Of a stretch of DNA of 64,000 bases, positions 7,533 through 60,156 are shown in pieces. Each line of letters starts with the position of its first letter. The stretch's first letter is position 1. The DNA is from Fragilaria crotonensis. Its lineage: Eukaryota > Bacillariophyta > Fragilariophyceae > Fragilariales > Fragilariaceae. The notes beneath the pieces are model-generated. The model was not told the origin of the DNA. It did not search any database and saw nothing but the letters and a program-made list of their open reading frames with translations. The translations under genes were made by a program, and so were the position numbers. The stretch lies in contig JAKSYS010000130.1 in assembly GCA_022925895.1 (NCBI GenBank), positions 47,979 through 111,978 on the forward strand. The letters are read 5' to 3'.

Positions 7533-7679
7533 ATGGCTTGTATCTGTAGCATTACCACGGCCGGCCTGCTTGTCGCACCACAACTAGCTTCTCACTCACT
7601 CCCAACTCCATTCCCAACCTCCTGCCCCTATCGCCATGTAAAACAAACAAACCAGCAAGCATGAATTCTCGTTCTCTTG

Positions 7680-19665: not shown

Positions 19666-19823
19666 TCGGAATTTCTCTGCAATCGCTCGCTGTTTGTCAT
19701 GGTCAGATGGATACGAGATTCGAAAATCACGGTGTGCATTGATTCATAACCTAATAGACAATGGGTTATGAATGTTCGAAACTTCGAAACTTCAAAATTT
19801 TGTTTCGCCGTATAATATGGCCC

Positions 19824-29497: not shown

Positions 29498-30126
29498 TTA
29501 TGGGACAGAGTACTCCAGTACAACAGTACAGCGTGCTCCCCACACGAGAAATGTTGAAGGCAACAAATGAGTTGGTGCGATTGAATTGTCTTCTCAACCC
29601 GAACCTGGACAGGTTGGCCCGGCATCGGGGTTAATTGACATTTTCCAAAACGTCCAACGTGTTGACGAGTGTGCGACGTACTCGGCGTATGCATATATAC
29701 ATAACCCCGGACATGAAAATTACTAGGACAAAAAAAAGGACAAATTTTCATGACGCTCGCTAACTCCCAATTTCTAAAACGAAGAGAATCGTAGTCGTAC
29801 AAGTTGTTCGCAACTTCATGAGCTTTCTAAATCTGTCCTACTTTTGTGATACGGCCTGAAATTGGTGAAGTTATGATGACACAAAGAGAGACCTTTTTTT
29901 CGAGCTCATAGAAATTTTTGTCCTAGAAAAAATCGTCAATTTAAGGACAAATTCCGCAAAAATTCTCCATACAAAAATCGATCTTGAGATTTTTACGCGG
30001 TAAAACCCCGTGTTAAATCACAACTTCACCATGACGATCACCGCTATCTCTGAATTTACCAACAACACCTCTGTTTTTCATTACAAACATGTCCTCCTTG
30101 TACTTCTTACTGGTACGGTAATCTTA

Positions 30127-31678: not shown

Positions 31679-32142
31679 GATGAACCTGTGTGTTCTGCAG
31701 GTGACAGGTAAGTTACTTCTGGGATGATGACATGCATTGTAATCGGAGAACAAGTCTTGAAAGGAAGTTTCATGTCGTGTTTATCGCCAAAAATTTGCGC
31801 AACGACCATGCCCTGATATTGGAATAACGTACCAACCCGTCAATCAACATCAAAACTGGATTTCATACGCGTAAACAAGTGTACGATGGAGGTTCTGTGG
31901 GTACTTGAAGAGCACTCCGTGATGCACAGCGACTAAGCCAGGAAGATAGAAGTGATCTCATCGATGTTAACAAGGTGATCGTCGTGTTAAAGTTCATTAA
32001 CCCGTGATTTTAAGGTTAATTTTTGTCCTCTCAAATCTTACCAATAGCGACCAAAGGGTAAATGACCCAAAGCGCGCGCTCAGTAACGGTCGCGAACACC
32101 TCTAAGTATTGCGTTTTCTTAAGTAAATGCATCCTGCCGTAG

Positions 32143-32249
32143 TTTTGCACCGAGTCGAGTTATGCGTTAGCCAGTGTAATGACAGCTTCCTACACGGTAT
32201 GGGAAGCTCCCATTACAACGGCTAACGCGTAACTCGCCTGGGTGCAAAA
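32143..32249. repeat. Subterminal hairpin of E2
   Basis: TTTTGCACC...GCGTTAGCC...AGCTTCC is followed about 10 bp later by its near-complement ending GGGTGCAAAA. The arms are about 48 bp with some mismatches. E1 has a hairpin at the same place with a different stem sequence. Confidence 0.75.
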
Positions 32250-32547
32250 GTAGGTTTTGACTCAAATTCCTGAAGTCATCGTTAATTTATTGATACATCC
32301 GGGTTTTCAAAAGATTTCTCGTACATCTTGTACGTGAGGGTCATTAACGAAGATACGCGTTTGATTCTAGATGTAGTACGTATCCTTACGTGCACGGCGT
32401 ACCCATGCATGCAAATCAGCACGAAACACTCTCACAACAAACGAAAGAAAGCTGTCACCATCCGGTGTCTAATCCGTCTCTTCTTGCTTTGGTGCACCTG
32501 CTCCTGCATACCAAGCCAACACTTTGTTCGTCTTTGCTGCTAGTGGC

Positions 32548-33200
32548 ATGGTCCAAACACGATAGGGTCATGCTGTTGTTTTCTGCATAGAAGCATCGTA
32601 TGGGCGTGCAGCACGCAACGAATCGACACGGAAGCGCACGAATGGAATTGACCCAAACGTCCATGCGAGAATTCAGCGCTGACAACAGTTTCACAAGTAC
32701 ACCACCACAAAGGACACCAAGAAAAACACGAGCTCAAATTCGGCAAGAAGAAGAATTGTCCACTCTGCCCAGTACTCTGAATCGAGTGCTGGGAAGGACT
32801 CCTCCAACTAAAACAGAGCGACTGCTCAGAGGGAAGAGGAAGCCAACATGTTCCGACTACGGGATTGCCTGCCACTTTTTGTTTCAAGGAAATGGCTTCT
32901 TCTTTTGTCATCCTTGCGATTTGTGGGACTTGCTCCCGCCTGAAGTCATCTAGACTGTCAGCAAGACTAGATTGCAGCCAGGCAGTCGGTGGCAGCAGCA
33001 ATCGTGAGTTTTCCTACAAACAAGAAGGATTCAGACAGTGAGGATGGCAGTGTTAGTAGTTCAAGTATCATGGGCGAGGATGAACATGAAGGACAACAAG
33101 GTGTAGTAGCAGCATACAACCGTGAACTCTCATCGACAACCCAATGCCGCAGAACTATTGCACACCACAAGCCGCATCGGAAGAGGATGTTTACGATTAA
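32548..33200 (+). pseudogene. E2 gene A remnant (internally deleted, nonsense at codon 6)
   Basis: Starts MVQTR like gene A of E1 but meets TAG at codon 6. The sequence continues in frame-related fashion (EASYGRAAR; then from the ATG at 32,600 in another frame) through the Cys-containing segment KPTCSDYGIACHFLF and CHPCDLWDLLPPE, which aligns with CSDFGKTRHFAF and CNACDLWDALPPD of E1. Some 80 codons later it ends in EEDVYD, the same terminus as QDDVYD of E1. The whole catalytic core (about 850 residues) is absent. Confidence 0.75.
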
Positions 33201-33221
33201 GTGTATTAGTAGTATGCATGT

Positions 33222-34651
33222 CTATCCATTTATTCTCTGTTGAATCAACTCTTTCGTCAATAGAATGTCAAACAACTTCTCGTTTCCGAAGAGATCATTG
33301 TTATGACGTGGATAAACACACTTGCCATGAACGTTACTGGAGTCCAACTTAATCACCCTATAGAGGCAACCGTCAGCATCCATGAACTCGCTGCCGGCCA
33401 TAATTTCCATATCCATATCCTCACCCTCATTTGACGAATCTTCATCATAACCCTCTTGTTCATTCAAGTGTGTTGTGGAATAGAAACTCCGCCGACAGAT
33501 TAAGGATGCAAGCAATGGATCACAACCATCAAGACTGCCTGAGTATGCATATCGGCTGTACCGAATTGTGATGAACAGCTCGCATGTACCATCATACTCT
33601 AGGTCAACGCCATCGCGGATAGTCATGGGGTTGAACTCCGGTTCACAATCATCCGATCCACACACCACATTTATTACGTCATTCTTCCAAAGCGTTTTTG
33701 GCGAGGATACTCTTGAAGACGACATCGCTGTCCTGCAGTAACGGACTCTCCGAAGATTTTGGACAGGTGTCGAAGATGTGTCTTCGTTTCGAATCGCATG
33801 ACACTGCAGACCTTTCTAACCCTCGCAGCTTTAATGACAAGTCCACTTTCGGTCACTCTGTAGACACGAACTCTAGATGATGAACCACAAGCAGAATCAC
33901 CGAATATGTGGCTGAATTGCCGATCAAGAAAACCCCATGTCTCGGACGTGATGTTTGTAAGACGACCTCGTTCCCTCCCAAAGAGACCTTGTTGTTGCGA
34001 ATAGCGGCCCAAAAGCCTCATTATCTCCATTTTAATTGATATCAAATTATTCCACACCCGATGAGCAAAACAGTCATGGTAGCGTGATTTTCGGTAATTC
34101 GAAGGGAATGGAAGGCAATACCCCTCTGGCACCTCTGTCAGCACAGACCGAGGTGAAGCTGCTGGATCAAATCTAAATCGCAATAGAAATGCCATGTACA
34201 TTCCCTGGCATGTGAAGAACAGACTTGATGGATCCTGAAGTGATGACATTGTGAAGACAAAAGACAAGTTCACAACATCACTTGCTGGAACCACACGTAG
34301 CTCGGTTGTCTGTACTATCTCTGTCAAGTGCCTTAAATGATTTTCGTTCAGCACGTTGGGGTACAGGAGGCCCTCGGTCTGTTGGACCTCTTTTAAGAAC
34401 CTGAAGATATTGACGCTGACAGATGATGGATTGGTGCTCACCAGAGCTACAACTCTTGCAACGACTTCCGTCCCGTCCTCCATCGCGTTGATTGACCTTG
34501 CCATACTACGAGTAGGCATGCCACTGCTTATACCCTCCAGAAGCACAAATGTACCAGGGTGGAGATCGGCCTTGAGCACATCTGAATAGAAGGGAGCTCC
34601 TTCACAAAGCGGTTCAGCCAGATCCCAGGAGGTAGCAGCAGGCTCAACCAT
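33222..34651 (-). pseudogene. E2 gene B, one-base frameshift
   Basis: Homologous along its length to gene B of E1 (52,174-53,577). Shared stretches are NENHLRHL-EIVQT-E, LEMTRLLGRYS-QQGL (IMEIMRLLGRYSQQQGL here), GQRCRL and NDVINVVCGSDD. The frame from ATG 34,651 stops at 33,674, while the conserved reading resumes from 33,725 in another frame; compared with E1 one base is missing near 33,705-33,710. The product has no recognised domain. Confidence 0.75.
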
Positions 34652-35142
34652 GCTCTTGTATGCAGAAGCGACTGTTGTTGCTGTCGGTCTCGTTGCTTCT
34701 GTCGTCGTTGTAGGGCCCTAGGATCTTCGAATAATAAAAAGCAGTTAAATTCATCCAGGATTTACAATGAACAAAGATGTTAGATAACGTTACGGCTCGA
34801 AGGAAAGTATTTAACAAACCCGTAAAAAGCTGTGAAAAACGACATCCCTTTGCTTTCATATGCTGATATCTATATAAATGGTCATTTGCAAAATGGTCTA
34901 GACATCGATGAGGTCATTTTACCCTTTGGTCGCTATTGCATCTCAGATCGCCAGAGGACAAAACCGAAAATATCAATCGGTCATCATTAATTTTTTTGTC
35001 CTACCCGGTAGGACAAAATAATGACCCTCCGTCCGGGGATAAGGTCAAACATCTGCTCGGAGTGTACTATTCCCTTGTCGACTGCATACCAACAAATGGT
35101 GACCAGATCTTGCACATAGACTTAATCAAGTGTCGCACCGTA

Positions 35143-44000: not shown

Positions 44001-44270
44001 GGAAAGCTGATGGAAGCGAGGCTGCCGGTGAAGCGTCGTGTGTTGGATGTGAATGCCAAGAACGTTGATGGATCGACAGCGCTTCTCGTGGCCTGCGGTA
44101 ATGGTCACTTGAAAATTGTCTGCGAATTGCTACAAAACAAGGACGTGGATGTTAATGCAAAAAATGTTGCCGGTGAGACTAGCTCCACTTTGGCGAGACG
44201 ACATGGACACGCAGACGTTGTTTCAGCTTTGCGCAAACACGAGAATGCTGGTGAGAGTGGTTGCATTTGA
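41028..44270 (+). CDS. Giant ankyrin-repeat protein Ank3, about 1,080 residues
   Basis: Start MITPDENRLLISDAGEGNIE aligns with Ank1, Ank2 and Ank4; the frame stays open a further 57 codons upstream, but that part has no counterpart in the paralogues. About thirty ankyrin repeats follow, more regular than in Ank2. A pair of repeat blocks (42,420-42,700 and 42,745-43,030) is nearly duplicated, pointing to recent in-frame expansion (DGRTSLILASFGGHLKVVRE occurs twice). The non-repeat segment (43,440-43,620) and acidic linker (43,840-43,990) match those of Ank1/Ank2 in position. No enzymatic or membrane part. Confidence 0.88.
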   Translation: MITPDENRLLISDAGEGNIEKVYQFLQSKADDYSQYPDAGDTALSLASAYGLVDVVCELLKHDKVDVNAKTNHGHTAIILASMYKHVGVVRELLQHGQVDVNGETNLGETALMFASAAGHVEVVGKLLKHDKVDANKKTKLGKTSLILASVKGHTAVVCKLLKHEKVDVNVECSIGNTAFMWACTVGRLEVASALLNHVRVDVNVMTKKGYSGFDFASQKGHVEIVRELSKHTKVVRSGFSLIVASDQGHLEIVRELLKDDKVCLNVKCGIGNTALTLASSNGHVDVVRELLKDKKVDVNVRNKAGSTALSMASKKGHATIVRELLTRDWNGMNAKDSTNLLAIILAIATAYLEVVGKLLKYGRLDVNAKDNAGRTSLILASDKGHYRVVRDVLKHQATDVNAKFGAGRTALINASDGGNTKVVRELLKSSSLDVNAKDDDGCTALCLASSKGHVSTVRELLKDARVDVNSRNEDGRTSLILASFGGHLKVVRELLKHQNVDANAKDDDGTTALIAAIQCNNLKLVRAFLVHDKVDVNAQNDDGRTVLMLASCGGHLAVVRELLKHERVDVNARNDDGRTSLILASFGGHLKVVRELLKHQKVDANAKDDDGTTALTAASESNHLTLVREFLLHDKVDVNARNDDGRTVLILASSWGHLSVVRELLKHTGVDVNAQDDDGCTAPSVATAKDHVDVVQDLLKYDRVDTNITIEDGRTSLVLASTLGHSKVGRDLLKHKEVDVNAKDDDGTTALIAASEKCHLEVICELLKHREVDLNARNNDGSTALLVASDNGHVEVVNKLLTRSCDTPSQAILNLNDVSHDIGSRLLARDQLGVEEIEGSYSDLRKVRDDGHVDCVTLLHSFADDKVDVNARRGDGATSLILACCKGHTMVVAELLKAHDVDVNAANSEDTTALISACASGHFEIVCELLKLASVNGDVEKTVDNKDTSIASGINSSTDVVDWDLLEGEHVDVHVSERRGDKVLHAASVDGKLMEARLPVKRRVLDVNAKNVDGSTALLVACGNGHLKIVCELLQNKDVDVNAKNVAGETSSTLARRHGHADVVSALRKHENAGESGCI

Positions 44271-45237
44271 CCATGTCTTAAAAGGCGCGTCACGTTTCGT
44301 CTACCACTCCAGTGTGCTGCTACTTTGACATGGCGAGTCTCCGTTTATGCCCTTGCTGTTTCGAATAAAATATTAGAAAGAGTTGAATGGAATGGGAGTT
44401 CGAATTTGTCTGTTCTGCATTTATCAGTTTTGACTTTGTGAGGCTGTCGAGTCAGGCACAACCGGAAGGAATTGTATAAAATCCATTCCTTACCTGATTG
44501 TCTTGATGTGGGGATCACTACAAAAACGAGCCTGCGTCAACAAACTCCTTCAATGACTAATCTGGTGTTGTCCACTTGTGGCAATTCGAGATAAAGGATC
44601 GACTGTAGGCTTTGGAATTCAAGTTGGAGGTTCTGTACTTTTGGGAGGCTGGGTTACCGATAGCTAACCTAATACGCTGCTGATCTGCGCGGTATGCTGA
44701 CAGGCATTGATTGTGGTGAGGGCAATTGATGATCGATATCTGTGTCATCCTTATAGACTGTGATGTTCAGTAAATCGAACAGATGATGCAGAGAGTGTTA
44801 GGCTTCCAATGGAACGACTCATCCTCGAGGCGATGGAATGCTCTACAACCCTCTCATGGTTGGGCTGTTCGATCGGATCGACACACATATTATAGGGGTT
44901 CGACAAATGACGGTTCGAACTTTGAATCGTGAGAGTATAATAATTCGGATATGACCAAATAGCGTTTGAGGAGTGTAGATCAACGCTTCACACGAAAATC
45001 TGAAAGAAATCGAACGAGTGCACCAACTAGACTCGAACGTATCATTCGTGAGTTTCGATTTGAGAATTGCGTATTCCATCTGATCCTTGTTCGACGGATC
45101 GACCCATTCACAACAGAACTCCCACGAAATAGGCTGGTGCGAACCAACAAGCCCTTAGCCAATCACTGTCGAGACGCTATCTCGACTTGCTAGTCGTGCG
45201 CGTCGTTCGCCTCTGACTTTCGTTCTCAGTGCTTAGC
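44271..45237. other. Intergenic between Ank3 and Ank4
   Basis: The Ank3 3' flank resembles those of Ank1/2 (TTTATGC...TTGCTGTTTCGAATA, then AGTTGAATGGAATGG). The Ank4 5' flank carries GATCAACGCTTCACACGAAA at 44,979 and GATTTGAGAATTG at 45,057. Confidence 0.5.
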
Positions 45238-47127
45238 ATGATTACTCCGGAAGAACATAGGTTGTTCATCTCTCGTGCTATTGAAGGCAACATTGACAAG
45301 GCTGAAAGCTTCTTGATACTCAAGATACTCAATCACTTCTCGCAAATTCTTTCGCGAAGCAAGTGTGGCATTGACAGCCCGTGCACGGACACTGGTGAAA
45401 ATGGCATTTGTCTCGCCGAGGTTGTTCGCGAGATGTTGGAACATGAGACGGTGGAAATGAATGTCAAACGTCATTTGAGCAGATGCGCCATTGAACAGGC
45501 GGCTATGTTCAATCATGTCGGCGTTGTTCGCGAGCTATTAAGGCATAATACGGTAGACATCAACACCCGATGTCTGGCTAACCAAACACCTCTGATCTTG
45601 GCGTGCAGAAGTGGTTACGTGGAAGTTGTTCGCGAGCTATTGAAGCATGATGATGTAGATGTCAATGCATCTTGTCGATATGGAACAGCCCTTACGACGG
45701 CCGCAAGATGTGGTCATGCTGAAATTGTTAGCGAATTATTGAATGACAAGAGGTTGAAGATGAACGCCAGAGATCTGAAACGCTTGACGATCGAAGTCTT
45801 GGCGGAAAGAAAGGCCGTTCCGAATCATTTAAAATCCCCTATGGTTCGCGAGTTATTACAAGCCAAGCTCTTCTGGGCGAGTGAACACGGATATGCGGAG
45901 ATGATTCGTGAGTCAATAAAGCACGAAGGTTTGGATTGGAATCTCAAAACACATCGCGGCAGAACACCCCTAATCGTGGCGAGTGAATGGGGCCAGTTGA
46001 AAGTCGTGAACGAGTTGTTGAAAGTTCAGGCTGTCGACGTCAATGCTCAAGATGACGATGGCCGTACGTCCCTCATTATGGCGAGTAGTGTTGGCCATGT
46101 GAAGATGGTTCTAGCGTTATTGAAGCACCGAAAGGTGATTGTTGATGCGAAGGATAACAGCGGTCGCAGCGCTCTCGTGTGGGCGGGTGAACTCGGCAAT
46201 ATGCAAGTTGTACGTGCGCTGTTGGCAAATTCGAAGGTGCGCAAACTGTCAAAAGTTGGCGAGTTTGATGTAAATGTTGATACTGGAATTGGTCGAACCA
46301 CCCTTATCATTGCGAGTGACAAGGGCCATGCTAGCACTTTTGTTGGCGAGTTATGGAAACACCCGAGGGTGGATGTAAACGTCATCAATGGATACGACTT
46401 CAACGCCCACATCTCGGCAAGGTATGGCAGCCATGCCACAGTGGCGCGCCAGTTGTCCAGCCGCTCTATCTTCATGGCGAGTCCGTTTCACCGTCCAGAC
46501 GCTGTTGGCGAATTATTGAATCGCGTCAAGGTGGACGTGACTGCCATGACAAGCCGTGACAGAGCGTCAGTCGCCTGGGCGAATGGGAAGTACCTGCTTC
46601 GAATTGATGGCGGGGTATTGAAGTTTATGGAAGCGAACAACGATAGGAACGATGGTTGGGCTGCCTTCCGTTTGGCTAGTGAAGGTGGGCATTTCGCTGT
46701 CGCGCTGTTGAAACACAGGGCTATGGATGCGAATGACAAGGACAACGATGGCACCTGGGCCTTGATCGATACAAGTAATCGGGGACACTTGGAAGCTCTT
46801 TGCGATACCTTGAAGCAGGAGAAAGTTGATGTGAATGCTAATCGTGAGGATTGCACCACGATCTTGTTCCCGGCGAGTGGAAAGAGTCACGAGGCAATAC
46901 CTCGCCCATCATCCAAACGCAAAGGTGTGGATCTGACTGCCGACGATGACAATTTGCAAAGTGCTCTCATGAGTGCGAATGGTGATCACCGACTGAAGGT
47001 GGTTTCTGATCTTGTAACGCATCAACACATTGACTTGACTGTGATCGACTCTGCTGCTCACTTTCCAAGTGACGCTCTGGATTCGGTACTGGTACTGACA
47101 AGGTCTGAAGAAGTGGCGGTGCGATGA
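45238..47127 (+). CDS. Divergent ankyrin-repeat protein Ank4, C-terminus replaced by retroelement
   Basis: Start MITPEEHRLFISRAIEGNID is homologous to Ank1-3. About 630 codons of ankyrin repeats follow, several strongly degenerate (46,380-46,900), then a short non-repeat tail. The last codons (TRSEEVAVR and stop) lie within repeat A1 of the DIRS element that begins at 47,097; the same tail is read at the end of a frame through repeat A2 (59,273). Bridging the insertion, the original frame would have run on about a dozen codons past the junction before its stop. The C-terminal half present in Ank1-3 is missing, so this paralogue was already shorter or decaying. Confidence 0.8.
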   Translation: MITPEEHRLFISRAIEGNIDKAESFLILKILNHFSQILSRSKCGIDSPCTDTGENGICLAEVVREMLEHETVEMNVKRHLSRCAIEQAAMFNHVGVVRELLRHNTVDINTRCLANQTPLILACRSGYVEVVRELLKHDDVDVNASCRYGTALTTAARCGHAEIVSELLNDKRLKMNARDLKRLTIEVLAERKAVPNHLKSPMVRELLQAKLFWASEHGYAEMIRESIKHEGLDWNLKTHRGRTPLIVASEWGQLKVVNELLKVQAVDVNAQDDDGRTSLIMASSVGHVKMVLALLKHRKVIVDAKDNSGRSALVWAGELGNMQVVRALLANSKVRKLSKVGEFDVNVDTGIGRTTLIIASDKGHASTFVGELWKHPRVDVNVINGYDFNAHISARYGSHATVARQLSSRSIFMASPFHRPDAVGELLNRVKVDVTAMTSRDRASVAWANGKYLLRIDGGVLKFMEANNDRNDGWAAFRLASEGGHFAVALLKHRAMDANDKDNDGTWALIDTSNRGHLEALCDTLKQEKVDVNANREDCTTILFPASGKSHEAIPRPSSKRKGVDLTADDDNLQSALMSANGDHRLKVVSDLVTHQHIDLTVIDSAAHFPSDALDSVLVLTRSEEVAVR

Positions 47128-47432
47128 GTCGTCACTGCGCTTCAACTGAATCGTCATCGGGTACAGGGTACCGTACTACGGTAGCAGACAGCACGCTACA
47201 GTAGTAGACTTCCAGGAGAATTGGGGGATACCTTCACGCAGGTTCGGGAGGATCCCGAACCAACGATACGTCCGTGACGGAACTGATAGGCAAGTCGCCC
47301 CCAACCACACGATGAATTAAGGAAAGGAAGTTGGAGCCCAGAGTCGAAAACACAGGCCTCTCACATTTTCACCAAACGGGTCAAAATCGTGCAAGCATCA
47401 TCGCATCATCCTAGTAACTAAGTTCTAAAATA
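47097..47432 (+). repeat. DIRS repeat A1
   Basis: 336 bp, direct repeat of 59,243-59,578 with about two differences (GTCGTC/GTCGGC and CAGAGTCG/CAGTGTCG). It ends five bases before the gag start codon. Confidence 0.93.
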
Positions 47433-47436
47433 TTCA

Positions 47437-48511
47437 ATGGCTTCTATTGCTTCCACCTCCTGGACTACTTTCTACTCTAGAAACCGGGAAGACGAGGGAA
47501 CCTACCAGAGCTTATTCGACGAGGAATTTGTTGATTTAGTCACCAAAACTGTCAGCTTTCTCGAACAGCCGGACACGTTTACTCAGTCGATCGCGGGAAG
47601 TATGCACGGGAACATGATAATTGTCCCAGCTGAACCTGGAAAAATGAACATAATCCACCACGGGTTTCTGTGCAATAAACCCGGGGGTTCTGACTTAGTC
47701 TTCGTTCAAGGTAACCTTGGTGATAGTTGCTACTTCAAAGTGCTCGCACGCGAGGATGCAACAGCCCAGATCAAAGTTACCAATGGTAGGCGAACCACTA
47801 CGGTGAATTGCCCTACCCTTGAATCCATGACAGGAGCAACGACTGGAGACGAGTTTGCCTCCCTTGTTTCCCAAGGAAATGTCATACTCCGCCAGAAACC
47901 GAACCTCTTCCTCATCCACCCAGCGATTTTCCATTTGGCGAAGGGGGCTCCAACGGTCAGATCCCGCGAATTGGCAATCAAAATCATCGACGCCCTTCGA
48001 GTCGACCCAGAGGAGGATGACGAAGAAGAAGTGGAAAGGAAGCTATCCGACGCGACAAACCTCGAATTACTTCTGGGAATGCTTTGGGCTTCCGACAACG
48101 GAGGTCTAACCGCAGTCAGACTCACCGACGTTGACGAGAATCCTACCCTCAATCACACTATCAGGAACATCAAAAGAAAACTGATAGGCGACGGGAGAAC
48201 TGACACCCCAGAGAGAGAACGACGAGGAGGGGATGAGCCCGTCGACGACGCTGCAGCACCTTGGGCGATCTCCTCGCAAAGCATTGTACGCGAACTGAAC
48301 CGGATGCACGAGAGCCGAGAAAACGAGATCTCGAAGAAGGAGTCAAATCTGTCCTTACTGAAAGCGCTGGGCCCCGACCAAAAACGACTCTTCACCGCCT
48401 TATGCACAACAAAGATGGGGGACGAGCCAGTCATGTCCGAGTTCATGTTGACTCTGATTATGACCAAAACCCCACAAAAAGCCATAGGACTACTGAAAGC
48501 CGCGGGACGAG
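47437..48511 (+). pseudogene. DIRS gag, 5' part (split by E1)
   Basis: The ATG lies just after A1; product MASIASTSWTTFYSRNREDE onward. It is a hydrophilic Gag-like protein without recognised motifs in this half. The frame runs into E1 after codon 358 and stops at 48,579 inside the transposon. The 3' part resumes at 53,881. Confidence 0.75.
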
Positions 48512-48614
48512 CAATAGCGACCAGAGGTCGCTTTTGCAAGAGTGCGCGAAGCGTAACGGTCGCGAACACCCTTAAGTAAAAAAAGGTTGTATGTAACTAG
48601 ACTTGCGAATGGTG

Positions 48615-48717
48615 TTGCACCCAGATGAGTTGACTACCTGAGAATTTACATGGTGCATCCTTGATCGGTAAGGATCCCCCACTTAAATTTTGAGGTAGTC
48701 AACTTGTCTGGGTGCAA
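48615..48717. repeat. Subterminal hairpin of E1
   Basis: TTGCACCCAGATGAGTTGAC...ACCTGAGAATTT pairs with AAATTTTGAGGT...GTCTGGGTGCAA. The arms are about 33 bp with a loop of about 37 bp. The outer TTGCACC/GGTGCAA and the following AAGTAGGTTTT are shared with E2. Confidence 0.75.
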
Positions 48718-48985
48718 AAGTAGGTTTTAGGCTTCAAGTGGGTAGGTCATAATATTCCGACGAAAATGTCCGGCTCAAAACCTGATAGAGACGTGCAATG
48801 AACGTAGAGGTCATTTCAGAATTCTCACGGTTGCAGAGCAAAAAGATTTTGTCGTTACCCTCCATCCATGGGACGAGATTACTTCTGAAGTGTGTGATTG
48901 TGATCATCTCCCCCACTCGTACCCTCATCCCCAAAAGCCGCTTCTGGTACCGTTACAATATCTTCAGCAGGCATCGCAAAAAGGG

Positions 48986-51900
48986 ATGGTTCAAACACGA
49001 TCTGGAAATGTTGTTATTCACACGGAAGCTTCGTATGGACGAGCAGCGAGGAGCGAATCGTCAAGGAAGCGCCGGAAAAGAAAGGCAGAAAATGATCAGA
49101 ATGCAGCAAATGCGACAACACCAAGGAGACGGGCACCTACAAGATCACAAATTCAATATGATGAGGCATTAGCAACTCCTCCCGGTGCATCTGCTAGGGT
49201 TGGAAGCACCCCATCGCCCAACAAGACTGATCGAATTCTACGAGGTACTACAAGAAAACCACGATGCTCCGACTTTGGAAAGACACGTCACTTTGCATTT
49301 CATGGTCAAGGATTCATGTTCTGCAATGCCTGTGATTTGTGGGATGCTCTCCCACCTGATGCAACCAATAAAGTGTCAATTGATTCGCTCAAGTTTGGTT
49401 GCACTGCCAATCATACCTACTTCTCGCATCCGACTACACTCCGGAAACAAGACTGTTATATACGACGAAAGAGGAAAGTGGTGATCCCCATACTCAACGT
49501 GCAACGCAGGGTTGTACCAAACTATGGTGTTGCCTTCAACGAAGAATCGGATTCTTCTTTCGCATCAAGTTTTGATGGTGAGGTTGTTGTAGTTGATCAA
49601 GGTAATGGCGGCAGCAGTGCACACCACAATAACAACAATTCTCGCACGACGACAACAAGTTCAACCGATGACCCAAGTGACAACGACGACAATCAACCAA
49701 TCCTTGGAAGCTCAACTACAAATGCGATGCCGATGGATGTGATAGCTACTACCACAGCAGGTGTCGGCTCTTCTATCACTGATGTTGAGAGCAGTCTGCT
49801 GAATGTACAACAGCATGCACTAGTGGTCGAACAACTTAAAGGTAAGATTGCGTTGCTGCAAGAAAGGAATGATCGGCTAGTCAGAGAAGTCAAAGCCCTA
49901 CAATGCAAAGTAATGAAACATAACGCAACGACAACCGATGAGGGTGCTACTGTTGGTGCACTTTCCACCAGCAGTCGGAACGAGAGCTTCACGCAACAAG
50001 TTCTTGCAGCCTTGAATGGTGTCCTGCAAAAGCATCGACGCTGGAGTGCAAATCGAGTCGGTGCTTTAGTTGCAAAAGCTGTTTGGAATCATGACACGTA
50101 TCTTCCACATCTGCTTCGGCATGCTCGCAAACATTTGCGAGAAAAGGTCTTCACTACTTACAATATCCTACGAGAAATGGATCTCGCTGGAGGCACGCTC
50201 TCCTACGAAGGAATCGAAGTGTTGAGACGTGTGGAGACATGCGGTGTGAAGAGATTCCGAGGCTCAATGATACCATCAAAGTCTGAGCTTAAACGAATGG
50301 CTGGAGTTGTCGAATGGTTTGCAAGAGAGCATTGCCCATTCGAATTACAGCAAACCAAAAAGGGTGAGTCGGTTCAGTTCAATTATGGGAAGGCAATGTT
50401 GTGCATAACGCAAGCATTCCACCTGGATACGATTGGAAAATTGCGAAGCTTATCGATCGCATCCTCAATTGATGGGGCCTCACTGTCAAAGAATCTTTCA
50501 GTCATTGCTGGGGGGATCAAGATTACTGACCGTGCTGCTCGGTGTCCAATAACATGCAGACCTTTGCTTGACAATCCGTGTACAATGAGTGCACAGTCTC
50601 GGAACCTTTGCATTCCATTGAAGATCATGATGGGGCGGGAGACCAAGGAAACCTTTGTTGAATTCGGTTCCCTTTTCAAGTTTCTTGACAATCTTGCCGA
50701 TGAAGCAACTATTCCTCCCGAGATGGCAGGATTTCTACCTTTCTCGTGCATGACCAACTGTGACCTGTCAGCACAGTGGAAGGGTTTGTGCAAAGGTGGT
50801 GCGGCAAAGATTCATACACTTCCTTGCACTGGGTGTGCAACGGAGTCAGATGAGTTAGCCACTCCAAACCCAGAACGTTGCACAAGATGGTGCATCGAGC
50901 ATTCCATTGACCCAGATTGGCTTTGTTATCACAAGCCTATGGCGACGCCCGAGAGAGTTGTTGCAATGCAGGCTGAAGTTGAGGAACTTGTATCGACACT
51001 AGAGAGGGCTCTCATTGAGATTCTTGCCGAGTCAAAAGTTACTCGCCACGATATTGAACTCGACACTCCACCAGAAAGTTCGGTCAACGACAATGCCTCC
51101 ATCCACTTTTGCCCCAACAGCGCAAGTCAGAGGCACTCATTTTCTCGTTTACTAACAAATGAACTGATTCTGCGAGGGCTCGACATCAACGGAAGCTTGG
51201 AAATCAGGCGAGAAGGATTAAGAGTTGCTCTCAAAGGTGAAGCAACGATAGTTAGGCTTTCGAAAGAGATTGCTCATGGGGAGGTTAAGGAAGGAGCCTA
51301 CTTTCTACTGATGCAGACTCTCCCGTGTGTGCTTCACATGGAGAATCGAAATGGCATAAAGATTCTCTCGATGCTGCTTGTTGAAGGAATGTCAAATGCA
51401 AAAAAGCGGCTTATATACAATGATGTCAAGGCTGAGGGTACGAGAGTAACTCGTTTCGTTACAGACATGGAAGATATAATCAATCGATCAATATTAGGAA
51501 CAGACGAAGACCCGTGTCAATGGATGTGCCCATTTGATTTCCAGAAAAAGGAGCTTGGTCCCATAACCATGGACAATGTTCGAACTCGACGTATCATCGA
51601 TGCACTTGATCTGATTGTGGATCTTTGTGTGATAGATGACGCTCGCAAAGCGCGATGGATGACAGGACTTAACCATTACAGGATTGCTATGGTACTACTA
51701 AGAAAGAAGGAGGATTTTACGAATGACATGATTGCATCGTATCAGAGTCATGCCGACAAATTCTACCAGGCATGGCTTCAGCTTTGGCAAAAGGAGGGTG
51801 TAACAAATTATCTTCATATGATGGGGTCCGGTCACATCGCTGACTATCTCTACAAGTGGAAGAATCTCTATCGCTTCTCGCAGCAAGGCTGGGAGGCGAT

Positions 51901-52129
51901 GAACTCACTCATCAAGACATTCTTCTTTCGACGAACTAGTCATGGTGGCGGCGTTCGGGGAGCTGGCAACAAGAAGTCTCGGCTTATTCCAATAGCACGA
52001 TGGTTACAAAGGCGGATGATATTTCTTTGTCGCATCGACGAAAGTGTGATCCATCAATACACAGCAGATCATCCTATGCCCGAGGGTTTCTGCACACAAG
52101 CATCATCACAAGATGATGTATACGACTAA
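48986..52129 (+). CDS. E1 gene A: candidate DDE transposase, 1,047 residues
   Basis: The start is the ATG of MVQTRS, because similarity with E2 begins exactly there (an upstream GTG frame extension is not conserved). Layout: basic N-terminus; a Cys segment (CSDFG...CNACDLW) near residues 95-125; an Asn/Thr-rich linker; a leucine-rich coiled coil near 280-310 (LLQERNDRLVREVKALQCKV); then a long ordered core. In the core, SSIDGASLSKN (D496), MTNCDLSAQWKGL (D593), followed by C-x-x-C (PCTGCATE), and LYRFSQQGWEAMNSL (E970) have the spacing style of an RNase-H-fold DDE transposase with an inserted domain. HMMGSGHIADYLYKWKN just before the Glu is a distinctive signature. Transposase function is inferred from TIR-bounded context and this residue pattern; the superfamily was not identified. 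Confidence 0.6.
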   Translation: MVQTRSGNVVIHTEASYGRAARSESSRKRRKRKAENDQNAANATTPRRRAPTRSQIQYDEALATPPGASARVGSTPSPNKTDRILRGTTRKPRCSDFGKTRHFAFHGQGFMFCNACDLWDALPPDATNKVSIDSLKFGCTANHTYFSHPTTLRKQDCYIRRKRKVVIPILNVQRRVVPNYGVAFNEESDSSFASSFDGEVVVVDQGNGGSSAHHNNNNSRTTTTSSTDDPSDNDDNQPILGSSTTNAMPMDVIATTTAGVGSSITDVESSLLNVQQHALVVEQLKGKIALLQERNDRLVREVKALQCKVMKHNATTTDEGATVGALSTSSRNESFTQQVLAALNGVLQKHRRWSANRVGALVAKAVWNHDTYLPHLLRHARKHLREKVFTTYNILREMDLAGGTLSYEGIEVLRRVETCGVKRFRGSMIPSKSELKRMAGVVEWFAREHCPFELQQTKKGESVQFNYGKAMLCITQAFHLDTIGKLRSLSIASSIDGASLSKNLSVIAGGIKITDRAARCPITCRPLLDNPCTMSAQSRNLCIPLKIMMGRETKETFVEFGSLFKFLDNLADEATIPPEMAGFLPFSCMTNCDLSAQWKGLCKGGAAKIHTLPCTGCATESDELATPNPERCTRWCIEHSIDPDWLCYHKPMATPERVVAMQAEVEELVSTLERALIEILAESKVTRHDIELDTPPESSVNDNASIHFCPNSASQRHSFSRLLTNELILRGLDINGSLEIRREGLRVALKGEATIVRLSKEIAHGEVKEGAYFLLMQTLPCVLHMENRNGIKILSMLLVEGMSNAKKRLIYNDVKAEGTRVTRFVTDMEDIINRSILGTDEDPCQWMCPFDFQKKELGPITMDNVRTRRIIDALDLIVDLCVIDDARKARWMTGLNHYRIAMVLLRKKEDFTNDMIASYQSHADKFYQAWLQLWQKEGVTNYLHMMGSGHIADYLYKWKNLYRFSQQGWEAMNSLIKTFFFRRTSHGGGVRGAGNKKSRLIPIARWLQRRMIFLCRIDESVIHQYTADHPMPEGFCTQASSQDDVYD

Positions 52130-52173
52130 CGAGAAGCACTATACTTCTACCTGAATTTTATCTTAGCCTGAAT

Positions 52174-53577
52174 TCAATCAACACCTTTGCAAGTTGTATG
52201 TCGAATTGTTTTTCGACCAAATAATGCGTTGTTGTGTTGCGGATAACAACACTTAGCGCAAACGTAAGTAGCATGTATGCTTACCACTCGGTAGAGACAT
52301 CCGTCGTGATCCTCAAACTCACTCCCGTTCATGATAATTCCTTGGTGATGATCCTCCTGCACCACATCCTCGGGATCACAGGGATATGGATTGCAACGAT
52401 GAATCAATGAAGACAACAGTGGATCACATTCCTCAGTCGCAACAAGACCTCTTCTTGAAGAATACGTGAATCGCCTGTATCGAATGGTTATGAACAATTC
52501 ATTACATCCGTCAAATTCCAGATCGATGCCATCGCGAACAGTCTTGGAATTAAAGCCAGGTTCGTGGTCATCAGAACCACAGACCACGTTGATGATGTCA
52601 TTCTGCCACAGGCTTTTAGGTGCTGATATTTTGGGCAGTCGACATCGCTGCCCTGCAGTTGTTGATTCTCCAAAAACATAACAGAGATGCTGAAGATGAG
52701 CCTTTGTCTCGAATCTTAGAATGGTGCAGCGCTTACTAACTTGAGCAGCTTTAACAACCAACCCACTTTCGATAACTCTATGCCGTCGGGTTCGAGATGA
52801 AACTCCACAGCCAGCAGCATCAAAAATGTTGTCGAACTGTAATCGAAGAAACCCCCATGCCTCGGCGGTGAAATTTGACAAGCGACAGACTTCTTTTCCA
52901 TAAAGTCCTTGTTGGTGTGAATATCGTCCTAGTAACCTCGTCATCTCCAGCTTCACACAGATCACGCTATTCCACATCCTACTGGGAAAACAATCATGGT
53001 ATCGTGAGTTTTGGTAGCTTGATGGAAAAGGAAGGCAGCAGTTGTCCGGCAGCTTGATTAGAATCGGTTGATCATTTCCGAGGTGGGACCGATACCTTAC
53101 TACAAACGCGAATGTCATTCCCTGACAAGTGTAGAAAAGATTGCTGGTATCCTGCAGCGATGCCATGGTAAACACGAATGCCAGGTTCATTATCTCATCA
53201 CTTGAAATTGTTCGAATCTCTTGTGTCTGCACAATTTCGGCTAGATGCCGTAGATGATTTTCATCCAGCAATCTTGGATGCAAAAAGCCTTCTGTCGCTG
53301 AAAAGTCATTCAATCGCTTGAATATATTCACTTGGACTGAAGTTCTGCTTGATGGCAGGCTGGTTTCTGCACCAACAATTCTCGCCACTGTCATACAAGC
53401 ATCCTGACTTCTGGTTTCAATGCTCGTGTTTCGTGGTGCCAGTAGCACAAATGTACCTGGCAGAAGATCCGCCTTGAGTGTTCGGCTGTAACATGCCATT
53501 GGAACTTCGTTTTGCTCGCAATGGGGCTCAACCCTGTCCCAAGAAAAGGAGCCGGCTGGAACTGCTGCGGTGATCAT
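52174..53577 (-). CDS. E1 gene B: conserved accessory protein, 467 residues
   Basis: No family recognised. It is homologous to E2 gene B along its length. Recognisable blocks are LKADLLPGTFVLLAP near the N-terminus, ENHLRHLAEIVQTQE, LEMTRLLGRYSHQQGL, GQRCRLPKISAPKSLWQNDI with NVVCGSDD, and a C-terminal Y-R-V-V-x-I...C-C-Y-P-Q-H-N-N segment. It appears to be a globular protein without membrane segments; the C-terminal D-G-C-L-Y-R-V and C-x-x-C-C may be a small metal-binding or chromatin-reader-like fold, which is speculation. Convergent with gene A; the two stops are 44 bp apart. Preservation in the deleted copy E2 suggests it is part of the transposition machinery or useful in itself. Confidence 0.7.
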   Translation of the reverse strand: MITAAVPAGSFSWDRVEPHCEQNEVPMACYSRTLKADLLPGTFVLLAPRNTSIETRSQDACMTVARIVGAETSLPSSRTSVQVNIFKRLNDFSATEGFLHPRLLDENHLRHLAEIVQTQEIRTISSDEIMNLAFVFTMASLQDTSNLFYTCQGMTFAFVVRYRSHLGNDQPILIKLPDNCCLPFPSSYQNSRYHDCFPSRMWNSVICVKLEMTRLLGRYSHQQGLYGKEVCRLSNFTAEAWGFLRLQFDNIFDAAGCGVSSRTRRHRVIESGLVVKAAQVSKRCTILRFETKAHLQHLCYVFGESTTAGQRCRLPKISAPKSLWQNDIINVVCGSDDHEPGFNSKTVRDGIDLEFDGCNELFITIRYRRFTYSSRRGLVATEECDPLLSSLIHRCNPYPCDPEDVVQEDHHQGIIMNGSEFEDHDGCLYRVVSIHATYVCAKCCYPQHNNALFGRKTIRHTTCKGVD

Positions 53578-53880
53578 GATGGTGAGTAGCTGACACCTTC
53601 GACGTTCTCCTTGTTGGAGGTGAACTCGAGAAGGGTGCGATGGTCTCTATTATGTAACAGACCAGCACTTCATAAGAAAAGACGTTATCCATCTGAAAGA
53701 ATTTACTTACGCAAAAACTGTTTACATGACGTTACAAATAATTCAGATTAAATAGTAAACCAGTAAGAAGTAAGTAAACACGACATCGATAATTATACAG
53801 ATGCATAAATCAACATAGAGTGCCTAACCTGAAATGGTCGAGACATCCGGAAAAGTCATGAGGGCCCTTGGTCGCTATTG

Positions 53881-54912
53881 GGATGGAGCGGAACCTTCTC
53901 CGAAGGTTGTTGCCACCGATTCCTCTCCACCGGATTCCTGTCCCTAGAGACAAATCTTGCGAACCCAGGGGGATTCACGGTATTCATGTTTCATCCAAAG
54001 ACAGTGGATATGGGAGCACGCGGATTCGACAGTACCACGGCCTCCCTCCGGGAGTACTTCGATATGGACGTAGAGGACGATACCATAGCCTACTATGCAA
54101 AGCAAGGGTTCTTCCACCCCACCAACGCTCATGACCTAAAAACACAATTACAAACGGCTTTCGAAATGCTGGAGCTGCTAACCTGCAAGGGGTCAATTGC
54201 TACAAAAGGGTTAGCATACATACTGGAAACACGCCGGTGGAATCGGGCATTTGCCAAAATTCATGACAGGTTCCAAACGGAGGACCGCTTTGGGTCAAAG
54301 TTCGTGTACAGTGTTGACACGGCACTACAAAATTTCTTCGACATGATTACCAGTGCAGGAGAGCTACCCGACATGGTAGACGAAAACTTGCTAGTGGAAA
54401 AGGCTAAGAAGCTTATGGACAAGATTGAGGATGGCGACACCCTAACTATTGCACTCCCGGCGGCGCTCTCACCTACTCCCAAGAAAGCGGCAAGACCCAC
54501 TAGTACAACGGGAACCGAGGAACCATCTACCAAGAGATCAAAGGCCACCACCCCAACTCGGAGTGCCCTCGGAGTACAAAAACATCACCCGTCGGATGCA
54601 CATCCCAACAAGGACCCGCACCCGTCATGGCTTGTCAAGGAGGGTGTCGATTTCCTGAGCTTGTTCGCGGACAGAGCCCCCGGGACTCATCGATGGCCAA
54701 AGTTCATGGACCCCCGGTTACCGAAGAAAAATAAGCAACCGCGAGCGGCGCCACTTTGTGTCCGCTTCCAAATGACGGCACAGTGCACCTACGGGTGCAA
54801 ACTCGCACATGTTCTCGCGAAGAACATGACCTCGCCGGAGTTCCGACAAGCCGACCGCATCATGCGAGAGGTCCACCCACCCACCACACCCGTCACCTCG
54901 GCAGGACATTGA
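53881..54912 (+). pseudogene. DIRS gag, 3' part (split by E1)
   Basis: The frame resumes right after E1 (GWSGTFSEGCCHRFLSTGFL, then NPGGFTVFMFHPKTVD). A Lys/Pro/Thr-rich linker follows near 54,460-54,600. Near the C-terminus CVRFQMTAQCTYGCKLAH gives a C-x8-C-x4-C-x3-H zinc-knuckle-like motif (54,760-54,815), fitting a nucleic-acid-binding Gag. The stop is 46 bp before the ORF2 ATG. Confidence 0.75.
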
Positions 54913-54958
54913 TGGGACCGGCCACGCGAAGCATTGCCATTCGGCACTCCCGTCGTGC

Positions 54959-57900
54959 ATGTTCTCGCAGCATGTGGCCATCACCAACTCCCCACTTTTG
55001 GGCTTCCCCCCAGCCGCCCCACCGGGGCGACAAACACCCTGCAAGTACGGCGGCTTGCACCGCCCGAACCCACCCCTGCTCCCACGAGTGGGCTTCCTCC
55101 CAGTCGCCCCACCGGGGCGACAAACACCCTGCAAGTACGGCGGATTGCACCGCCCGAACCCACCCCTCCAACCCCGGGCTTACCCCAAGCACTGGTGCCC
55201 TCCACCAGCGCTGAACCTTTTGCAAGTACGGGGAACAGCCCCCGAAAGCCCGCCTCGATCCCTCCCCGACCAGAACTCGCCGTGCGACAACCAACATTCA
55301 ATGGCGACACTAACGAATGGGAGCCCAGCTTTGCTGGGAACAAACAAACTGGGTCCAGGGATGCGGAGCACGAGAGCGGAAGCGGAAGCAGCACGCAACA
55401 GAAGGCGCAAGGATACCAGGAACACGGCGCGATTAGCCTTAGCGGACGAAACGGACAAATTAACAACAGGTGAGTTCAAAACCAACAACAAGCGGGGGGT
55501 GAAAGCGGCACACTACCTTCCAAGCAGTGCCGCCAGTTTCTTTGGAGTAGCGGTAAAAGGGCCCGACGATAACAAGACTGAGATCCCCAGCTGGTTCATT
55601 GTCGAGCTGGCACGAGCGGCAAACAGGAAGACAGAGGTACCAGCAAAGTCGCCCATCCAATTCGAACAGAACGCGAAAGCAGCAGAAGCGAACGCGAAGA
55701 TACTGAAGGAATCAAACTTCAACGTGTCGGAGCTGATCGAAAAATTCTCGGACACAACGCTCGGGTACGGTTCGGAGTTTAGAACCGTCAATCAGCTAAA
55801 ACCGATAATTGGAAGGCACCCAAACTTTGACAAACTGGCGCTGGTACTCACAAGGGGTATGCCCTACGTGTTCAAGACGGAGCTGACCTCGACCACAAAG
55901 TCAGCAGAGTTACGGACACTGTTGAAACGGGGAAACCACAAATCGGCGACGGAATCAGCAGACCAACTCCAGAAACTTCTGGCAAAGGACGTGACACACG
56001 GCTTCACGATTCCCATACCGGTATCGATACTGGAACAAATACCCGGAGCCGCAGTGCAACCGCTCGGGGTGGTGAAGCAGTGGACGATTGATGCACACGG
56101 GAATAGGGAGATCAAGTACCGCATGACACAAGACCTGAGCTTCTCCTCGAACCAAAATGGCACAGCAACGTCCATAAACGACAGGATTGACATGTCCGAG
56201 TACGTCGAAATGATTTATGGATGGTGTCTCCCCAGGATCCTGCACTATATCGTGGCGGTTCGGTTAAAATTCCCAACGATTCGGATTTTGATCAGCAAGT
56301 ACGATTACAGTGATGCCTACCGAAGGATAGCTCACAGTGGGGAGGCGGCAGCGCAGACAATAGCAGTCCACAATGGAATGGCCTACTTGTCCCTGCGACT
56401 GACCTTCGGCGGATCCCCGAACCCGCCCACTTGGTGCCTGTTCTCGGAGATAGTGACGGACCTGGCGAACGAGATCTCTCGGTGCAAGGAGTGGAACCCG
56501 AGGGAGCTTCGGAACCCAGCCCAGTCCGAGACCCCGATGCCTCAGCGTGAGAACGAATCAGTCGCGATCGCGACTGGCCGACGGATGGCCGTCGAAGTGC
56601 CGATGCCCGAGTCAGGTCCCGTAGGGAGGGTCGACGGTTTCATCGACGACTTGATAAATGTCTTCCTCGACACCCCCGAAAACTGTCGGTCCCAACCCCA
56701 TGTAGTCCCGCTTGCAATCCACGTCACGAGCAGACCTCACGCAGGGGACGACAAAGAACCCATACCCAGACGACCACTGCTCTCGTTGACCAAACTCATC
56801 GCGGAAGGGAGCCCCGCAGAAGTTCAAATTGTCCTCGGCTGGAGGCTGGACACGAGGCGACTGCTGATTACGCTACCAGACGACAAATTCCGAGCTTGGA
56901 CAGGAGAGATCGACGATATGACCCGGAAAGGGTACTGCCGCTTCCAAGAACTGGACCAGTTAGTCGGGCGATTAAATCACTCGGCTTACATCATCATGTT
57001 GACTCGCCACTTCCTGGGAAGACTGCGGGGACTCCTCACTCCCCGACAACACAGTAACAGGATAATTCGGATCCAGGGTGAAGTGAATGAGGATCTCCGA
57101 TTGTGGAAGACAATACTGGCCAGGGCAAACCAAGGTGTCTCCCTCAACCTGATTGTAACACGCGAACCAGACAGGATATGCTGGTCCGACGCCTGCCCCG
57201 TCGGGCTGGGAGGTTACAGTCTGTCCGGCCAAGCCTGGAGGATCAAAATCCCTCGGTCCAGCATCATCCATGGCCACAAGGGAGTCAACAACCTCCTGGA
57301 ATTTGTGGGGATGATCGTGAATATCTGGTTGGAATGCCTGGACTCAAACACCAACCAATCCTGCATACTCGCCATCGGTGACAACACGTCAGCCATTGGA
57401 TGGCTATACAAGACTTCAGGCCTCGAATCGTCGTCGATGGAGCACAAGGCGCACTTGTTTGCCGCCCGCCACCTCGCAACAATTCTTATGAAATACGACT
57501 GCTGCATTGCATCGCAACACATCAAGGGCGAGTCGAATGTTGTAGCGGATCTCCTGTCGTTCGCCGGAAATGACAACCGCAACAAAACCCACCCCTTAGC
57601 GCACGACGATCCCCCAAACGACATTCTAACTCAGCGCTTTCGGGAAAACCTTACCTCGCAGGTGCCGGAAAATTTCGACATTTGTCAACTGCCCAGCGAG
57701 ATACTCTGTTGGGTCACACAAGTGCTGCGAATCGCAGCATCGTCTTTAGAAGCTGCCAGGAAGGGAGACACGAGGAAGCCGACCGGATGTGGCGACGATG
57801 GATCGGGTTTGGAAGGCACACCGGATACACAGCTGACCCCTTCCTCGCTCTGCTATCCAACAACGAACGCGAACTTTACACCAAAGCCTTCCTTCAATGT

Positions 57901-58960
57901 TACCGCGTCTCCACTTGGTCCACCAACGGGGACGTTACAGGGACTCGTCCGCGACCGTTGGTGGCAAGCACTGTCCGACAAGCCGCAGGCCACCTGGCTG
58001 CGGCGTTTCGAACGATCTCCGGCCGAGCCCCATTCACGTCACGGGAAGCTCGCACCTCCGACCATTCATCCGAGCACTCTTTCGTTCATACGAGAACGAC
58101 GACCCACCCGAAACCAACAGCGAGCCATCACTCCTAAGCTCCTCCGAGCAATGTACTTGACAGCGGGGACCAGCGTGGAAATCACGAGAGACACTGAATT
58201 CGCAATCATTTCGGAACTAGCCATAATGGCCTACTTCTTCGCGATGCGATCCTGCGAATTCACCCTCACCCCGCAGACTGGTAGGACTCGGATCGTTCGA
58301 CTCCGTGGTATCACATTCTGGGATGCCAAGAAGAGGAGCTCCACACCGTTCACCTCAGATAACGTCAGCCACTCGGGTGACAATCACCTTCGAAGACCAG
58401 AAGAACGGTGTCAGGATGGAGAAACGCACACAACGCAGCACCTCCGACCCCGTCCTCTGCCCTGTCAAGCGTATTCGGTCGCTTGTCGAGCGAATCTACC
58501 GTCGTGTGCCTGACGCGAACCCCGATACGTCGATCAACGCGACATTCCTCGAAACCGTTCGTTCACAGATCACAGGATCTGCCCTGCGATTGTTCATGCG
58601 ATCAACCTGCACCTCAAGGGCGGCCGGCCGACCTTCGGTTTCAACGCCGTCGACATCGGCACCCGCTCCCTCCGATCGGGAGCAGCCATGGGCCTCTTCC
58701 TGATGAACCACCCCGTCATGGACATAATGATGATGGGGAGATGGGTCTCGGACGCCTTCCTAGTCTACATCCGACCCCAAGTCCTTGAATGGACCGACAA
58801 CATGTCCACTGACATGATAAAATTCAATACATTTACCGACGCAACAAATTCCCGAAAAGCCCCACCCTCCGACCCCCGGACTCGCCGCCGCTTGTTCAAT
58901 GGTCCCGGAAAAGAAGACGGAGCACCCGTAGTCATAGAAGCACTACACCTCCATCACTGA
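54959..58960 (+). pseudogene. DIRS ORF2: reverse transcriptase - RNase H - tyrosine recombinase, two frameshifts
   Basis: From ATG 54,959 one frame runs to about 58,370. RT is seen as KYDYSDAYRRIAH (near 56,300) and DGFIDDLINVF, the catalytic Y/F-x-D-D variant (near 56,640). RNase H follows with WSDACPVGLGG, an E-F-V-G-M segment, GDNTSAIGWL and HIKGESNVVADLLS. The recombinase begins with AYF-FAMRSCEF, its first Arg motif (58,230-58,260). Near 58,370 the reading moves to another frame (VTITFEDQKNGVRMEKRT) and near 58,583 it returns, ending with IGTRSLRSGAAMGLF and GRWVSDAFLVYIRPQ, the Tyr motif. The position usually His in the first of these is Arg. The two indels compensate. Either the copy is recombinase-dead or the indels are assembly errors. 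Confidence 0.88.
55000..55179 (+). repeat. 90-bp tandem repeat in ORF2 N-terminus
   Basis: Two in-frame copies starting GGGCTTCC at 55,000 and 55,090, each encoding a 30-residue Pro-rich unit with PPGRQTPCKYGGLHRPNPPL. Confidence 0.85.
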
Positions 58961-59820: not shown

Positions 59821-60156
59821 GACAACAACAGCGACAATATATGTACCCTTGAGCGTGGGGGTCTGATAACACAACTGTGAGTAAATCTCACTGCGCACTT
59901 CACGCGCATGCTATCCAACCATACCGCATACACGCCAGTGGTACATACAGTATATAGTACTTGGACGAGGTCGTCCCAAGCACTCTCCCTCTCTGTGATC
60001 TCTGACATGAAAACATGTGATTCCCACCTTCGATTTGATTGACTCCATCTCGGTCGTAGCAGTATCATCGATCATCATCTTGTTTAGCATTTTAGTCACA
60101 ACGCCATTGTTACGCCAGTGCTGAACGCGTTCCATGTATATGAAATCCTCAAGACA

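Follow-up and report, generated by a model that had tools for sequence, protein, structure and literature searches.

A two-gene DNA transposon family in the diatom Fragilaria crotonensis with a candidate transposase of probable RAG1/Transib-CACTA type

To which group of mobile DNA do two related elements from the diatom Fragilaria crotonensis belong, when no library family is matched by their genes? The elements, called here E1 (full length) and E2 (internally deleted), lie in a stretch of 64,000 nucleotides (contig JAKSYS010000130.1 of assembly GCA_022925895.1, positions 47,979 to 111,978 of the forward strand), referred to below as the window, and E1 carries two genes, A and B. Taken together, the evidence makes it probable that E1 and E2 represent a cut-and-paste family with CA..TG ends, in which the product of gene A is a RAG1/Transib-CACTA-type DDE transposase and that of gene B its partner. 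Rather than being entirely new, the family appears to be a remote branch, as yet undescribed, of an established transposon group, and gene A, judged solely by its aligned motifs, most likely falls in the clade of CACTA, Mirage, Chapaev and Transib (CMCT).

The limits of the elements are marked by their inverted ends. A search of the window for CAATAGCGACCA, allowing up to one mismatch, returned four sites, all exact, which are the inward-facing ends of E1 and E2; 0.20 sites would be expected by chance, and four were reached in none of 100 shuffles. The terminal inverted repeats of both elements are 12 bp long and perfect, the inverted ends of E2 match at 21 of 21 bases, and with CAATAG at the left and CTATTG at the right both elements are of the CA..TG type. 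Just inside the ends, a left block, GTAACGGTCGCGAACACC..TAAGTA, and a right block, GATGTCT.GACCATTT, align in both copies, so that the inverted termini and subterminal motifs reported for the two loci in a preliminary description are both borne out. The two-gene DNA transposon family proposed there is well supported by the ends, the colinear content and the convergent genes: as in DDE cut-and-paste transposons, inverted ends surround a transposase-like gene and more than one copy is present, the gene in E2 being reduced to scraps. A third copy near 21.8 kb, indicated by a 15-residue tblastn match (expect value (E) 1.0), was rejected, as neither a long open frame nor the end sequence is present there.

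E1 splits an open reading frame, the two parts of which occupy 47422-48511 and 53881-54912. When these flanks were joined after removal of 0-8 bp, a long frame resulted at three lengths alone, 1, 4 and 7 bp (706, 705 and 704 codons before the first stop, respectively), the other six lengths giving 382-447 codons. For duplications of 1-8 bp at the E1 flanks, only the 1-bp length matches (G/G), and the base flanking E2 is likewise identical on both sides (C/C), with no repeat of 2-5 bp in the flanks; for the bases alone, the same flanking base on both sides in both copies has a chance of 1 in 16. These flanking sequences suggest a target duplication of 1 bp, or possibly of zero if one flanking base belongs to the element. 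The preliminary description had E1 interrupting a DIRS gag frame and E2 a piggyBac-like element. An open frame is indeed interrupted exactly at the ends of E1, the gag label having been given by eye and finding no support in Pfam, while the host of E2 is weakly piggyBac-like (DDE_Tnp_1_7, E 0.0072, 16.1 bits against a cut-off of 22.4). This E2 host element, a possible piggyBac relative, spans 29725-35003 with limits set by eye, and close to its end there is a near-perfect palindrome at 34990-35022. Downstream of the gag-like frame lies a frame of 1227 codons (54830-58513) that is reverse-transcriptase-like by eye; it gave no Pfam match at E 1e-3 and a chance-like one at 0.061.

The two genes of E1 are arranged tail to tail, with A on the plus strand and B on the minus strand. 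The stop-free frame of gene A comprises 1127 codons, of which 1047 follow from the first methionine at 48986, and a start at the first methionine of gene B, at 53577, would give a protein of 467 residues; the longest stop-free frame across 300 base shuffles of E1 was 242 codons. The 1,047-residue protein with the HMMGSGHIADYL...GWEAMN signature had been described at both loci. It is present in E1, and in E2 tblastn recovered broken remnants of gene A only, so the signature occurs in E1 alone. Gene B is found in both elements, at 53-57% amino-acid identity. The ratio of non-synonymous to synonymous differences per site (pN/pS) between E1 and E2 is 0.41 (325 codons) and 0.31 (138 codons) for gene B and 0.44 (112 codons) for the N-terminal piece of gene A, and the synonymous value, pS, is 0.75-0.89. 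Since synonymous sites approach saturation and non-synonymous ones have changed less, gene B is kept as a protein, under constraint, and E2 more probably belongs, in deleted form, to a sister subfamily than derives from E1 by deletion.

The earlier statement that the convergent second gene has no known domain agrees with the Pfam scans (E up to 1, and up to 10 for pieces), in which no family reached the cut-off for gene B and neither a kelch nor a PHD family was found by this profile search. Matches below the cut-off, to NinF (E 0.038, 0.018 and 0.013) and DUF4072 (0.14) for gene B and to SAC9_GBDL_1st (E 0.093) for a piece of gene B from E2, are taken as chance. A search of solved structures with two gene B profiles returned no match, and the AlphaFold model of gene B, made from a three-row alignment, was unusable, with a mean predicted local distance difference test score (pLDDT) of 34.5. 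A likeness of gene B to BAH or Tudor domains, seen by eye, was dropped, as the Pfam and structure profile searches gave no support.

The nature of gene A was approached through alignment with RAG1. In a first block (RAG1 593-752 against residues 485-640 of A, with free ends), four of six scoring schemes placed D600, D708, C727 and C730 of RAG1 on D496, D593, C614 and C617 of A; one of the remaining schemes missed only the second aspartate and the other paired none of the four residues. The two cysteines were thus paired in five of the six schemes, four times together with both aspartates, and all four residues were paired in 2, 9 and 12 of 1000 shuffles in three schemes. In a second, C-terminal block, H937, H942 and E962 of RAG1 fell on H944, H950 and E970 in all four schemes, and shuffles paired the three together 5, 20 and 10 times in 1000. 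When this block was widened, the two histidines and the glutamate were placed in four of five schemes, with scores reached by 152, 6, 8, 2 and 9 of 500 shuffles. Compared locally with the whole of gene A, the RAG1 E962 segment matches best at TNYLH..H...GWEAMN, which holds H944, H950 and E970 (score 47; 13 of 2000 shuffles were as good). The third histidine of the clade, assigned here to H795 in RAG1, fell on H784 in one of five schemes. The block alignments are therefore consistent with D496, D593 and E970 as catalytic residues, as which they had been put forward before any alignment was made, pairing them with D600 and D708 in four of six schemes and with E962 in four of four.

Several patterns were written after gene A had been seen. 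A loose D-D-CxxC-HH-E spacing occurred in 36 of 5000 shuffles, or 12 when [LM]H was added, TNY.H in 13 of 5000, and H(3-5)H[VI]..G.E..N, which is present in A, in none of 5000.

According to a 2025 research paper (PMC12730594), the CMCT clade comprises CACTA/EnSpm, Mirage, Chapaev, Transib with RAG1, Plavaka, ESTA and Lanisha, and RAG1 derives from a transposon of this clan. The marks given there are a D..D..CxxC..H..H..E order with H(3-4)H before the last glutamate, CA..TG ends in most members and a target duplication of 2-5 bp. Gene A has the same D..D..C(2)C..H..H..E order by its alignment with RAG1, and E1 and E2 have CA..TG ends. Because of the pairing with RAG1 residues and these ends, the family points to the clade of CACTA, Mirage, Chapaev and Transib (RAG1), and the earlier view that it fits no superfamily that can be named looks too strong, residue order and ends both being published marks of the clade. 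The family may possibly form a new superfamily within it.

Several results weigh against this placement. As compared with the marks in that paper, H944 and H950 form H(5)H, one residue longer than H(3-4)H, the 2-5 bp duplication is not seen at E1 or E2, and gene A has no profile match; the family is, moreover, known here from two copies. In searches of Pfam, PHROGs and NCBIfam no family reached the cut-off with gene A, and the Pfam scans gave no profile similarity to any CMCT member family. The best library match, Zf_WRKY19 (E 0.015 for the whole protein and 0.00026 for one piece), was below the cut-off and is taken as chance, as are Lipoprotein_6 (E 0.028), Peptidase_M1 (0.03), DUF6970 (0.053) and an ATP synthase model (0.15). 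Against solved structures, gene A and its pieces gave nothing better than E 0.65, and RAG1, which is in that set, was not found with any of them; an unambiguous assignment by profile to an established superfamily, which would have spoken against the preliminary description, was thus looked for in libraries and solved structures and not obtained. The AlphaFold model of residues 331-1047 was unusable (mean pLDDT 33.0).

The alignment scores themselves are modest. Those of the first block were reached by 398, 18, 7, 34, 18 and 18 of 1000 shuffles in the six schemes and those of the second by 207, 96, 59 and 90 of 1000, and the blocks were picked after the motifs had been seen, D496, D593 and E970 having been named beforehand. 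The whole RAG1 core, used in a single local search, scored 47, a value that 179 of 2000 shuffles of A attained, and the RAG1 D600-C730 segment gave no local signal in A (741 of 2000 shuffles). Without blocks, no more than three of the seven functional residues were paired under each of the three schemes; 91, 149 and 163 of 400 shuffles did as well or better, and 21, 35 and 61 of 400 attained the scores. With A reversed, two of the seven were paired. RAG1 and 6pqn_A, which we take to be HzTransib, an accepted RAG1 relative, match by sequence at only E 0.0087, so weak scores would be expected even for true members, which is no proof for gene A.

That gene A belongs instead to another DDE group, such as Kyakuja-Dileera-Zisupton (KDZ), with its cysteines, histidines and glutamate matching RAG1 by convergence or chance, seems unlikely, although gene A lacks a profile match to the CACTA, Transib or RAG1 families and aligns only weakly with RAG1 when no blocks are chosen. 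The E962 segment of RAG1 matches gene A best, in local comparison, at H944, H950 and E970, and the functional pairing comes from two separate blocks. The Pfam scans, where a KDZ model is presumably present, did not return a KDZ family for gene A either. CA..TG ends occur in Kyakuja families too (PMC12730594, section 3.2.1), a likeness to E1 and E2, whereas the duplications of 8 bp and 7 bp made by the Dileera and Kyakuja families described in that paper are not seen here.

An altogether new superfamily, not closely tied to any that is known, as first proposed, would fit the want of a family match in the libraries searched, the apparent 1-bp duplication and a partner gene of no recognised kind; the RAG1-type residue order and the CA..TG ends argue against it and make it rather improbable. 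It is scarcely credible that E1 and E2 are recombined or chance repeats with shared ends, since for all that there are two copies only and no duplication of the usual length, four end sites stand against 0.20 expected, the content between them is colinear, the genes are constrained and an open frame is interrupted exactly at the ends of E1.

Within the favoured RAG1/Transib-CACTA placement, a parallel in layout is ProtoRAG, in which inverted ends typically enclose a RAG1-type transposase gene and, convergent with it, a second gene (PMC7204232, PMC9435367), as in E1; in the RAG-like (RAGL) element AanRAGL of the stramenopile Aureococcus both genes run in one direction (PMC9435367). E1 and E2 differ from RAGL and Transib in having CAATAG rather than CAC-type ends and an apparent duplication of 1 bp rather than 5 bp, and from RAGL in that gene B, unlike RAG2L, has no kelch or PHD match in the Pfam scans and that the similarity of gene A to RAG1 is far weaker. 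The elements thus have a two-gene, RAG-style layout, yet do not qualify as members of RAGL or Transib. More tentatively, and in our judgement somewhat short of an even chance, they may be an independent two-component RAG-style transposon, that is, an undescribed superfamily of the RAG1/Transib-CACTA clan with an unrelated partner, a 1-bp duplication and a hairpin conserved in its pairing.

This hairpin, about 100 bp long, lies about 100 bp from the left end in both copies. Its arms are 48 nt and 83% complementary in E1, and 56 nt and 82% complementary in E2. Folded as single-stranded DNA, the E1 hairpin has z scores of -8.85 (plus strand) and -10.16 (minus strand) and that of E2 -11.61 and -10.86, in each case with none of 200 shuffles as stable. 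Comparison of the 25 outer pairs between E1 and E2, with G.T counted as a pair, showed 13 unchanged, two changed on one side, eight changed on both sides and still paired, and two broken; over 34 pairs the corresponding numbers are 16, 2, 11 and 5. Since eight of the 25 outer pairs, all consecutive, differ on both sides and yet pair, the pairing is conserved where the letters have changed. It could be kept by selection on structure or by one arm correcting the other. RNA folding is better for the plus than for the minus strand in both elements (-63.9 against -56.5 in E1, -75.1 against -68.3 in E2), consistent with a leader of gene A. Folding with DNA parameters is slightly better for the minus strand in E1 (-34.7 against -32.7) and slightly worse in E2 (-40.5 against -41.5), and the mismatches (three G.T to one A.C in E1, two to three in E2) show no clear strand bias; neither strand is favoured by DNA folding or mismatch type. 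At the hairpin, Rfam returned only a sub-threshold mir-674 match (E 0.7, 26.6 bits against a gathering score of 93).

It would seem likely from these features that the gene A protein binds the element ends and subterminal blocks and cuts at the terminal CA, using an RNase H-like site formed by D496, D593 and E970, with C614, C617, H944 and H950 making up a putative zinc knot inserted in the RNase H-like fold. Insertion would leave a target duplication of at most 1 bp. The product of gene B may be a partner that selection has maintained together with A, probably as a cofactor binding DNA or chromatin, and the hairpin, which lies upstream of gene A, could act as a folded leader of its transcript or as a DNA structure at the left end. 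A distant two-gene relative in an alga, if this is what the family is, would bear on how often RAG-type transposases have joined a second protein, and on whether in the CMCT clan the stagger of the cut may become as short as 1 bp. A transposon-end hairpin whose pairing, and not its sequence, is conserved would merit an explanation of its own.

Scans for relatives by peptide pattern, which require exact short matches and could miss far relatives, gave two stretches with A and 22 with B in viral contigs and three with A in genome contigs, none confirmed as a relative; a 51-residue piece of A gave 7 and 88 stretches in viral and genome contigs, respectively, again none confirmed. In viral contigs, a DNA pattern combining the end and a subterminal block had no match, and none of 13 stretches with a degenerate GH..QQGWE pattern was a relative (best tblastn E 3.5). 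A tblastn search of plasmids and phages, with gene A as the only query, gave no match. None of the titles and abstracts searched describes the element, Repbase and most subscription journals lying outside this coverage.

Table 1. Positions in the window of E1, E2 and their parts
Feature	Position	Strand	Basis
E1, full-length element, 5369 bp	48512..53880	.	CAATAGCGACCA inverted ends at both edges; flanking open frame rejoins minus 1 bp
E1 left terminal inverted repeat	48512..48523	+	search for end sequence
E1 left subterminal block GTAACGGTCGCGAACACC..TAAGTA, common with E2, candidate protein-binding site	48553..48578	+	alignment
E1 subterminal hairpin, 25-pair outer stem (G.U counted)	48615..48717	+	foldback search, folding against shuffles, pair comparison
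Gene A, candidate DDE transposase of 1047 residues (D496, D593, C614/C617, H944/H950, E970; H784 candidate third histidine)	48986..52129	+	open frame; RAG1 alignment; pattern counts
Gene B frame, 490 codons stop to stop, convergent with A	52174..53646	-	open frame; pN/pS against E2
E1 right subterminal block GATGTCT.GACCATTT, common with E2	53832..53847	-	alignment
E1 right terminal inverted repeat	53869..53880	-	search for end sequence
E2, internally deleted relative, 2897 bp	32042..34938	.	ends and gene remnants
E2 subterminal hairpin, matching place	32140..32252	+	foldback search, folding against shuffles, pair comparison
E2 remnant of gene A, N-terminal part, with stops and frame change	32536..32983	+	tblastn
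E2 possible scrap of gene A, weak 18-residue match to A 1077-1094, with stop	32963..33016		tblastn
E2 remnant of gene A, last ~20 codons	33135..33197	+	tblastn
E2 gene B, two frames, frame change near 33713-33716	33273..34717	-	tblastn, alignment

Elsewhere in the window there are four long ankyrin-repeat-like frames on the plus strand (12525-15545, 23824-27144, 40827-44270 and 45217-47127), apparently one repeated gene family, the repeats being recognised by eye. Inside one of them, positions 41931-41980 resemble the XIST A repeat of Rfam below threshold (E 0.0038; 27.1 bits, where the gathering score is 33), probably by chance. A chitin-binding and GH19 chitinase-like protein is encoded at 7665-8711 (Chitin_bind_1, E 4.7e-17; Glyco_hydro_19, 5.6e-6), a transposase with a DDE_Tnp_4 domain (E 6e-23) at 18826-19743, and a 971-residue frame with an AAA_16 ATPase domain (E 1.9e-27) at 34912-37827. 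A single frame at 60088-61206 combines a response regulator receiver domain (E 2.6e-26) with a LuxR-type GerE domain (5.6e-11).

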